The notes below the pieces were generated by a model, which was not told the origin of the DNA, did not search any database, and saw nothing but the letters and a program-made list of their open reading frames with translations. This document shows, in pieces, positions 13,242-55,629 of a stretch of DNA of 64,000 nt. The translations under genes were made by a program, and so were the position numbers. The stretch comes from Gemmata massiliana (GTDB lineage Bacteria; Planctomycetota; Planctomycetia; Gemmatales; Gemmataceae), in NCBI RefSeq assembly GCF_901538265.1, contig NZ_LR593886.1:9879738-9943737 (forward strand), written 5' to 3'. Every line of letters starts with the position of its first letter. Position 1 is the first letter of the stretch.

Positions 13242-13282
13242 CGCGAGACTCGACCGCTCTTCGGAGTGCGAAGTCGAATCAA

Positions 13283-13308
13283 CGGCCGGGTTCGTCCCGG
13301 CCGCTTTT
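13283..13308 (+). terminator. Intrinsic terminator after secA
   Basis: CGGCCGGG (13283-13290) pairs with CCCGGCCG (13296-13303) across the 5-nt loop TTCGT, followed by CTTTTG. Its position argues against starting the next gene upstream of it and supports the ATG at 13335. Confidence 0.82.
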
Positions 13309-13334
13309 GTAACTCGACTGGGAACGGATTCCCA

Positions 13335-14780
13335 ATGCTCCTCAACCTCGTCTACCTACTCGCGCTTACGATCCTCTCACCGTGGCTGATGTGGCGCGCG
13401 GCGCGGACCGGGCGCTACCGCCAGAACCTTACCGCGAAGCTATTCGGTCGCACCCGCCTTGCACCGCTCGCAAAAGGGCCGGTCGCGTGGTTCCACGCGG
13501 TCAGCGTGGGCGAGGTGAACCTGCTCGGTACGCTCGTACCCCAATTCCGGAAGCGCCACCCGGACTGGCACGTGGTCGTTTCGTCCACTACCGATACCGG
13601 GCTCGTAGAAGCACGCAAGCAGTTCGCAGATCTCGACGTAATCGCGTGGCCGTTCGACTTCACCTGGGCCGTTGCAACGGCACTCGATGCGGTCAATCCG
13701 TCCCTCATCGTGCTCACCGAAAGCGAACTCTGGCCGAACTTTCTCGCCGCAGCGAGCACACGAAACGTGCCAGTAGTCGTTGTGAACGCGCGCCTCAGTC
13801 CGCGAAGCTTCCGGCGCCTGAAGCGCGTCGCGGGTTTTGCCCGGCGCATGCTGTTCCAACACGTTACCCGATTCGCGGTTCAAGAAACCGAATACACCGA
13901 GCGCCTTCAACAACTCGGCGTACCGGCCGCGAAACTCGTCACCACGGGATCGATCAAGTACGACGGGGCCGCGGGCGAACGGGATACCCCGAAAACGCGC
14001 GCACTGAGGCGCGCAATCGGGCTTGGGGAACCTACCCCTCCGTCCCCCCTCCCTGAAGGGAAGGGGGAGCTGGCGCGCGAAATCTCTGTGTCTGAAACTT
14101 TGCTCGTTAAGCGTGAAAGTTCGGTCTCCCCCTTCCCTTCAGGGAGGGGGGACGGGGGGGTAGGTTATCTTTGCTCCCCCCTGATTCTCCTCGCGGGCAG
14201 TACGCACGCCCCCGAAGAAGCACTTATTCTCACAGCCTTCGCGCGCCTCCACGCGCAGTTCTCTCACCTGCGACTGATCCTAGTTCCGCGACACCCAGAC
14301 CGTTTCGAGGAAGTCGCTCGCCTCGTCGAAGACTCACGGCTCTCGTTTGTGCGTCGGAGCTGCATCACTGCCCCGCTGCCCGAAATGCCCGCGGTGGTGC
14401 TGCTCGACACGGTAGGCGAACTCGGCGCCGCGTGGGGGCTAGCGGACGTGGGATTCACCGGCGGAAGTCTCGACGGCAAGCGCGGTGGTCAGAGCATGAT
14501 CGAGCCGGCCGGGTACGGTGTGCCGTGCGTGTTCGGGCCGCACGTTTGGAACTTCCGCGCCGCCGCCCGGCGGTTGGTCGAAGTCGGAGGGGCCGTCATG
14601 GTAAAGGACGCGACCGAACTGGAAACCGAACTCACCAAACTCATCGCCGATGCAGACCGGCGCACGCGAATGGGGAACACGGCACGTGACCTCGTGCGCC
14701 GGCAACAGGGGGCGACGTCCCGCACGCTCGACGTGATCGATACCGTAATCACTTCCCCGGCACTCACTCGGGCAGCCTGA
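13335..14780 (+). CDS. waaA: 3-deoxy-D-manno-octulosonic acid (Kdo) transferase
   Basis: GT30 glycosyltransferase (also called kdtA) that transfers Kdo from CMP-Kdo to lipid A precursors on the inner face of the cytoplasmic membrane. The protein is 481 aa from ATG 13335. An N-terminal membrane helix (1-20) is followed by the family motif WFHAVSVGEVNLL (52-64), whose Glu60 aligns with the proposed catalytic base, then STTDTG, ESELWPN and, near the end, FTGGSLDGKRGGQSMIEPA. Residues of about 232-278 (PTPPSPLPEGKGE...SPFPSGRGDGG) are not part of the family. They are encoded by a palindromic DNA element inserted in frame between the two Rossmann lobes. The enzyme implies lipopolysaccharide-type lipid A with Kdo. 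Confidence 0.92.
   Translation: MLLNLVYLLALTILSPWLMWRAARTGRYRQNLTAKLFGRTRLAPLAKGPVAWFHAVSVGEVNLLGTLVPQFRKRHPDWHVVVSSTTDTGLVEARKQFADLDVIAWPFDFTWAVATALDAVNPSLIVLTESELWPNFLAAASTRNVPVVVVNARLSPRSFRRLKRVAGFARRMLFQHVTRFAVQETEYTERLQQLGVPAAKLVTTGSIKYDGAAGERDTPKTRALRRAIGLGEPTPPSPLPEGKGELAREISVSETLLVKRESSVSPFPSGRGDGGVGYLCSPLILLAGSTHAPEEALILTAFARLHAQFSHLRLILVPRHPDRFEEVARLVEDSRLSFVRRSCITAPLPEMPAVVLLDTVGELGAAWGLADVGFTGGSLDGKRGGQSMIEPAGYGVPCVFGPHVWNFRAAARRLVEVGGAVMVKDATELETELTKLIADADRRTRMGNTARDLVRRQQGATSRTLDVIDTVITSPALTRAA
14029..14166. repeat. Palindromic repeat inserted in frame within waaA
   Basis: Two 41-nt arms (14029-14069 and 14126-14166) are near-perfect reverse complements, separated by 56 nt. The whole is 138 bp, that is 46 codons, so the reading frame survives. 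The arms contain CCCCCCTCCCTGAAGGGAAG and its complement. The left arm codes for PTPPSPLPEGKGE and the right arm for SPFPSGRGDGG. It resembles a small non-autonomous or REP-like element that tolerates coding insertion. Confidence 0.85.
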
Positions 14781-43411: not shown

Positions 43412-43453
43412 AAAAACGCAACGGGACGCGCACATATGCGCGTCCCGTTGCGT
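43412..43453 (-). terminator. Strong terminator after accC
   Basis: On the minus strand, ACGCAACGGGACGCGC and its reverse complement form a perfect 16 bp stem (43416-43431 with 43438-43453) around a 6-nt loop. The stem is followed by a run of T (complement of 43412-43416). It lies 32 bp past the accC stop. Confidence 0.88.
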
Positions 43454-43484
43454 GTCAGACTTTGTGCGCGCGGGTTACTTGTAG

Positions 43485-44838: not shown

Positions 44839-44922
44839 GTCGTAAAGTCGTAAGGTCGAAAGTCGTGGGGTCAGCCGCTCAGGTCTTCGACTTTACGACT
44901 GTCGACCTTACGACTTTCGACT
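44839..44922. repeat. Inverted repeat between accB and accC
   Basis: 44839-44865 (GTCGTAAAGTCGTAAGGTCG start) is mirrored by CGACTTTACGAC and GTCGACCTTACGACTTTCGAC in 44888-44922. The arms are built of GTCG(T/A)AAAG-type units, so several registers pair. It fills nearly the whole 90 bp accB-accC gap. It is probably a genome-wide repeat, but its place in the operon could affect mRNA processing. Confidence 0.65.
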
Positions 44923-55382: not shown

Positions 55383-55440
55383 TTGACGCGCCGGCTCGGT
55401 CTACTACCTGACCTGGTTCGCGGAAGGCTCACGGCACTGC

Positions 55441-55629
55441 CGCCCGGAACCGGCCGGTGCCCGGCACGGAACCACGACTAGCGGGGTTGTTCCAGACCGT
55501 GCCGGGCACCGGCCGGTTCCGGGCGAAAGCGGTGCTGGAACAGCCTTCCCCGAGGCGAGTGCAACGGTATGCGCTCGGCTGACGCAACATCAGCCTGCTG
55601 TAAAACAGCGAGCTAAACCAACTCGGCTC
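55441..55629. repeat. Composite palindromic element
   Basis: A perfect 29 bp inverted repeat (55441-55469 and 55497-55525, arms CGCCCGGAACCGGCCGGTGC...) encloses a 27 bp loop. It is followed at 55577-55629 by three small hairpins: GGCTGA/TCAGCC, GCTGT/ACAGC and GAGC/GCTC. The two parts are probably one repetitive unit. It sits in the 355 bp gap between the exporter operon and the leftward sulfatase and has no reading frame. Confidence 0.7.

Follow-up and report, generated by a model that had tools for sequence, protein, structure and literature searches.

In-frame palindromic elements are best known from Rickettsia and Wolbachia. In Rickettsia they have been described, in excerpts of PMC10969869 and PMC3767692, as elements of 100-150 bp that belong to several families and of which many lie in frame in unrelated protein genes. 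Orthologous Rickettsia genes carry inserts at the same locus, sometimes from different groups of Rickettsia palindromic elements (RPEs), and the excerpt of PMC3767692 leaves open whether different palindromes at one site reflect a hotspot or the divergence of one insert. For RPE-4, RPE-6 and RPE-7, divergence of one old insert is one of the options that have been proposed. Intragenic REPs are known as well, and the relevant section of PMC3733652 reports such units, encoding 20-30 residues, in Opitutus terrae (Verrucomicrobia), Thauera and others. MITEs are normally intergenic, according to part of PMC10969869. Among the papers listed in our literature search, no report of such palindromic elements in Gemmata appeared, and the excerpt of PMC4672568, on Gemmata, treats CRISPR only.

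Here we describe a palindromic segment in the waaA gene of Gemmata, located in a stretch of 64 kb that was analysed as a whole (the window). The segment is very probably a copy of a dispersed, apparently non-autonomous family, termed family A, whose behaviour resembles that of the palindromic elements found in protein-coding genes of Rickettsia. What is added to the known cases is a planctomycete with a 10-Mb genome, in which core genes hold many such copies in frame and a host site persists longer than the palindrome in it. The features of the locus are as follows.

13335 to 14780, + strand: waaA (Kdo transferase), the host gene, stop included; the ATG at 13335 is the chosen start
14029 to 14069, + strand: left arm, with a short hairpin of its own around CCCTGAAGGG; encodes PTPPSPLPEGKGE
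14070 to 14125, + strand: spacer, with the motif GGCGCGCGA near the left arm, which recurs in many copies
14126 to 14166, + strand: right arm, reverse complement of the left arm, with the end GGTAGGTT; encodes SPFPSGRGDGGVG
14167 to 14181, + strand: right outer flank ATCTTTGCTCCCCCC, similar to GYCTTTGYTCCCC, with which several other copies are flanked on the outside

The ORF that holds waaA extends from 13266 to 14780, and its translation contains EPTPPSPLPEGKGE and SPFPSGRGDGGVGY. Pfam identifies the host as WaaA (PF04413, E 9e-54), its C lobe matches the PDB chains 4bfc and 2xci, and an AlphaFold model built on a 31-sequence alignment has a pLDDT above 90 across most of both lobes. The insert corresponds to residues 232-278, and pLDDT is below 50 at residues 236-278. 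As had been stated in the original prediction, the 138 bp (46 codons) are free of stops in the waaA frame and lie between the two lobes. Their position is exactly at the linker that joins the lobes. This linker was delimited by a fixed anchor residue on either side and compared in 80 homologous loci from named genomes, of which 10 were assigned to the Gemmata group by identity, titles and tree and the other 70 were taken as outgroup. Its length is a multiple of 3 in 80/80 loci. In the outgroup, the linker measures 9 nt (3 residues) in 62 of 70 loci and 0, 6, 21, 24 or 30 nt in the other eight; none of the 10 Gemmata-group loci has the 9-nt form. Distant WaaA proteins thus do not share the segment as a conserved part of the enzyme, a finding that would have spoken against the original prediction, and since the outgroup linker is so short, the 138-bp segment is, as judged from this comparison of loci, an insertion. 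Within the genus, 18 genomes have WaaA, our own included. Their linkers measure between 15 and 252 nt, and 17 of them have a length divisible by 3; the sole exception, from the relative G009, contains N.

The palindrome at 14029-14166 has two arms of 41 nt each, which are 98% complementary, and a spacer of 56 nt. This agrees with the dimensions given before, and the arm peptides had also been quoted correctly. The predicted RNA fold of the segment reaches -108.7 kcal/mol, whereas shuffled sequences average -57.3 (z -12.5), and none of the 200 shuffles folded as well. Within the 64-kb window, a 22-base arm core (up to 3 mismatches) was found in the two arms only (expected 0.00). The right edge is not sharp: the 9 nt past the right arm (ATCTTTGCT, three codons) are missing from G009 and are similar to the outer flank of several other copies, and the stretch 14167-14181 is possibly element-derived. 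In waaA of G009 (L007), where the element has an N gap inside, the part of the spacer beside the right arm matches the window copy in reverse complement, as would be expected if the sequence between the arms had been flipped.

Further copies in the same genome, which the original prediction had asked for, were found in large number. When up to 3 mismatches are allowed, a 20-base core of the arm is found 124 times (63 + 61) in the 10.1-Mb genome, against 2 (1 + 1) for the reversed control pattern. Of the 124 places, 100 were listed. At least 67 sites were clustered, and 63 of these 67 were read, window included, on the basis of 60 stretches around the sites plus the window; 35 partial matches stood outside the copy classification. 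At least 37 near-complete family A copies of 129-138 bp were obtained, with their ends extrapolated to the window copy, and most of them are in frame. With the 138-bp segment as query, matches were found in 15 of 58 relatives besides our own genome, 13 of them in the same genus (18 searched) and 2 in other genera.

Of the 37 copies, 34 have no stop in frame +2 and 35 have none in frame -2; the remaining four frames are stop-free in just 2-7 of the 37 copies each. Either orientation encodes a peptide close to PTPPSPLPEGKGE-spacer-SPFPSGRGDGGVG, with nearly the same ends. Family A is a frame-symmetric element, the length of which is usually a multiple of 3, which usually has one open frame per strand and which keeps its codon phase whichever way round it lies. 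The codon phase is identical in 34 of the 36 ORFs that span a copy, because the other frames hold stops.

The coding context was assessed by a codon-usage score trained on 27 ORFs of the window, where the left and right 300 bp were scored separately. For 27 of 37 copies, the two flanks agree on strand and frame, and the element is open in that frame (p 6e-14 against a chance of 1 in 6). Since waaA belongs to the training set, the window copy does not count as independent here. The motif of another palindrome family, P, is present in a 300-bp flank of 11 of these 27 copies, where the repeat can itself favour a stop-free frame, and is absent from both flanks in 16. In some of the 27, the score on one side is low or negative. 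Ten copies fail the two-flank test, including four of 130 or 133 bp; the MnmE copy is also among them, yet it is a clear in-gene case by homology. A length that is a multiple of 3 was found in 26 of the 27 two-flank copies compared with 6 of the other 10 (Fisher p 0.014). The spacer runs along the gene in 18 of the 27 and opposite to it in 9.

By codon usage and by the Pfam domains of the hosts, family A is located in frame within unrelated protein-coding genes, and more than 20 genes other than waaA carry it in this way. The domains found in host ORFs belong to housekeeping-type genes and are RarA/MgsA, MnmE, MoeA, SelB, AIR-synthase-type and PP-loop (TilS-type) as well as PNKP-ligase, sulfatase, AMP-binding and amine-oxidase. 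Copies are placed inside or between domains, for example in MnmE, MoeA, RarA and SelB, and several host domains appear as two stretches, which is consistent with splitting by the insert.

Compared with the described systems, family A is closest in kind to the RPEs. Like these, it consists of imperfect palindromes within 100-150 bp (129-138 bp, n=37, with the strong fold of the window copy), lies in frame in unrelated genes and has same-site inserts in orthologues. Unlike the RPEs, it has a planctomycete host with a 10.1-Mb genome, C/G-rich arms and a frame-symmetric structure, and the occupants of one site here include families with unrelated arms. The best WaaA homologues are titled Gemmata, Gemmataceae or Planctomycetes, which places the host outside the Rickettsiales. 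As the host is not Rickettsia and the likeness is one of described features, we refer to the element as RPE-like and not as an RPE; the analogy with Rickettsia drawn in the original prediction is right in kind. In common with MITEs, family A is short, has no gene of its own, is dispersed and has long terminal inverted repeats, which are also present in the waaA element. No target duplication was found, where the comparison included no clean empty site and the near-empty ones keep neighbouring repeats or residues, and no parental insertion sequence was found among the 100 of 124 core places listed: arm pairs spaced like an insertion sequence occur there only between two separate copies. We infer the mobility of family A from its dispersion. 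The target duplication that the original prediction had asked for was readable at none of the sites compared. A plasmid search and an Rfam search gave no match.

The WaaA linker carries strong palindromes in 10 of 20 Gemmata-group sequences, our own copy included. Nine of these fold with z values of -5.5 to -14, and the tenth, from G009, has its arms around an N gap. The arms are of family A or A-like in L001, L002, L003, L004 and L008, octamer repeats in L005 and L006, D-like (GGGGGGCGTGAGCCCCCC) in L097, and of the type CCCTCTCCCCCTGAGGGAGAGGG, which may be a distant A-like type, in L125. On the WaaA tree, the three A rows group together (1 change), and all arm labels together need 9 changes. 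Despite their length of 81 and 75 nt, the linkers in L017 and L018 were rejected as palindromes (z +1.1), and that of L020, from another genus of the family, has 57 nt, which is below the length for the fold test; long linkers are thus not all palindrome-derived.

MnmE and RarA also have palindromes at a common site. Among the species in which both flanks of the MnmE site are present, 10 of 17 have one (z -3.3 or lower), and for RarA the count is 10 of 14 (z -4.8 or lower), in both cases including our own copy. The arms differ, and in RarA three unrelated arm types occur at one position, A-like, D-like and TCCCTGACGGTCGCGG. These same-site counts cover WaaA, MnmE and RarA; for MoeA, the anchors fell in neighbouring repeats and the linker was obtained from our own copy only. 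The extracted MnmE and RarA linkers are multiples of 3, except for G009 in both genes and G007 in MnmE. Unrelated arms at one WaaA and one RarA linker, in 14-20 species, make the question of hotspot versus divergence testable. The RarA insert of G007 (L193) is long and was rejected for its weak fold (z -1.1). In G005, the RarA insert (L196) contains one palindrome half twice in direct repeat (SGRREPAGESP / SGQREPAGESP), after which comes a single reverse arm. Frame shifts or stops surround the palindromes in MnmE and RarA of G009 (L173, L199, L207), unlike in most other species, and either assembly error or real gene damage is possible.

Individual sites were compared in the two relatives G009 and G012. 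From 36 copies with a spanning ORF, 28 probes were kept, as three hosts were studied separately and five copies were below the length or coding threshold; L046 was dropped as repetitive, and the remaining 27 probes located 26 sites in G009 and 24 in G012. The occupant of a site was taken as the best BLAST match, short matches included. On this basis, the G009 sites hold A (10), A together with P (12), P only (3) or none of them (1), and those of G012 hold A (6), A together with P (5), P only (8), D (2) or none (3), so that 10 of 24 sites in G012 match another family and not family A. Palindromes with an arm of at least 16 nt occur at the homologous gaps in 12 of 24 G012 and 13 of 26 G009 sites, inherited copies included; from the rest of the same loci, 0.026 (G012) and 0.018 (G009) would be expected per site. 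The net length difference is a multiple of 3 at 21 of 24 sites in G012 and at 8 of 26, the chance level, in G009, the closest relative. Since N is present in 5 of the 26 G009 site segments, assembly error in long G/C runs is suspected as a likely cause of the frame breaks in this draft relative.

At L038, both near relatives lack A and retain the neighbouring P. A short remnant, GTAGGTT or GCAGGTT, is also left there and can be read as the scar of a deletion. Short residues ending in GGTT, GTAGGTT or GCAGGTT were also seen at L014 (G018 waaA), L202 (G016 RarA), L271 and L246, where relatives have the whole palindrome, and they too look like deletion scars.

Family P has 60 matches in our own genome, the 44 longer ones of which form 40 clusters. 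No fewer than 22 of these 40 lie within 250 bp of an A core, against 0.16 expected for the 67 A sites, and in several hosts P is read in frame beside A (GEGLQP). Many A-P junctions are identical (GGTT followed directly by GTGGCTGTAACCCC), so A and P may travel or be inherited as one block. The two families also have hairpin sequence in common, which, with the often identical junction, means that an old mosaic from which different parts were lost may account for the differences between them. Cores of family D number 79 in G000, 96 in G003, 167 in G012 and 70 in G009 (control 0), and 0 to 4 in the other five genomes searched. In G013, the waaA insert has an octamer pattern that was found again at about five further places of that genome and at two in G008, with a control of 0; the waaA insert of G008 itself is a different octamer. 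In both inserts (L096 for G013, L006 for G008), the arms are tandem 8-bp units, of the GGGACACG type in G013 and the GGAGAGTG type in G008.

If family A is an RPE-like mobile family, as we consider most probable, an enzyme acting in trans would have placed its copies into their sites. Insertions that break the frame or fall into a rigid part of a protein would be purged, and in-frame copies at permissive sites would remain, where their peptide may form a disordered loop. Such sites would be used again, with palindromes of the same or another family landing in or beside an existing one, and palindrome modules would be lost again with short scars left behind; re-use and loss together would keep orthologous sites occupied while the occupant changes. 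The linkers of housekeeping enzymes would in this way be repeatedly rewritten by mobile DNA. Evidence that speaks against this reading comes from the frequent frame breaks in G009, from the ten copies that fail the two-flank test, and from the searches for a target duplication and for a RAYT transposase, neither of which was found. It is quite possible, although short of probable, that tolerance alone accounts for the pattern, with frequent random insertion, no targeting and only a few loops per genome that accept about 45 extra residues. Several sites are indeed inter-domain linkers, and unrelated families occur at common sites. However, the density of palindromes is modest (4 in the 64-kb window), and the 0.018-0.026 expected per site compare with 13/26 and 12/24 found. 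Moreover, A adjoins P far above chance, although this could also result if both use the same permissive sites or are transferred together. A more far-reaching reading is in our estimation unlikely. In it, the core genes of Gemmata would have conserved docking sites that are targeted again and again, each palindrome or its hairpin attracting the next, so that unrelated families replace each other at one protein position throughout the history of the genus; if it were true, these sites would be the fastest-evolving parts of core enzymes, written by mobile DNA.

Somewhat unlikely, too, is that each site received one ancestral insert or mosaic which then diverged, its arms being kept complementary by templated repair and its modules being lost differently. 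Sites are shared across the genus, the arms of A, P and L002-L004 have a C-rich frame AACC..CCCCC..AGGGAAGGGGG in common and may be one superfamily, and residues like GTAGGTT resemble scars of older copies, all of which would fit such a history. Local divergence should not, however, yield a match to a dispersed family, and therefore the following cases count against it: family D is present at two G012 sites where G000 has A, with D cores dispersed in the same genomes, and the octamer pattern of G013 waaA recurs elsewhere in G013. In addition, D-like arms and the TCCCTGACGGTCGCGG type hold the RarA site in other species. The D and octamer families at homologous sites indicate that new arrivals contribute. 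Least likely among the alternatives, and very doubtful to us, is that the element is a REP/REPIN of the GTAG type, mobilised by the tyrosine transposase RAYT. Family A shares with REP, BIME-like and REPIN elements (GTAG and CGTC families) the inverted pairs of small hairpins with a spacer and the mosaic blocks. REPs have been described from planctomycetes, and cases within genes are known from Opitutus terrae and others (section of PMC3733652). Family A has a GTAG near the arm end, which lies within the long stem and does not directly adjoin the foot of the small hairpin. The arms are longer than in REPs, and about 44-46 residues are encoded. Most near-complete copies are read in genes (27 of 37), whereas REPs are mostly intergenic according to the same section of PMC3733652. 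A search for RAYT (PF01797) gave 0 matches in our own genome and was positive in 5 of 14 control genomes.

Finally, the 64-kb window contains 4 palindromes (6.25 per 100 kb), compared with 6.26 per 100 kb in 70 other planctomycete loci. With a density so similar, a saturation of the genome by palindromes seems unlikely. One of the others in the window, at 55435-55531, is a strong palindrome with 35-nt arms (91%) and a 27-nt spacer (CACTGCCGCCCGGAACCGGCCGG...), and two shorter ones are found near each other at 44844-44917 (23-nt arms, AAAGTCGTAAGGTCGAAAGTCGT) and 43414-43455 (21-nt arms).
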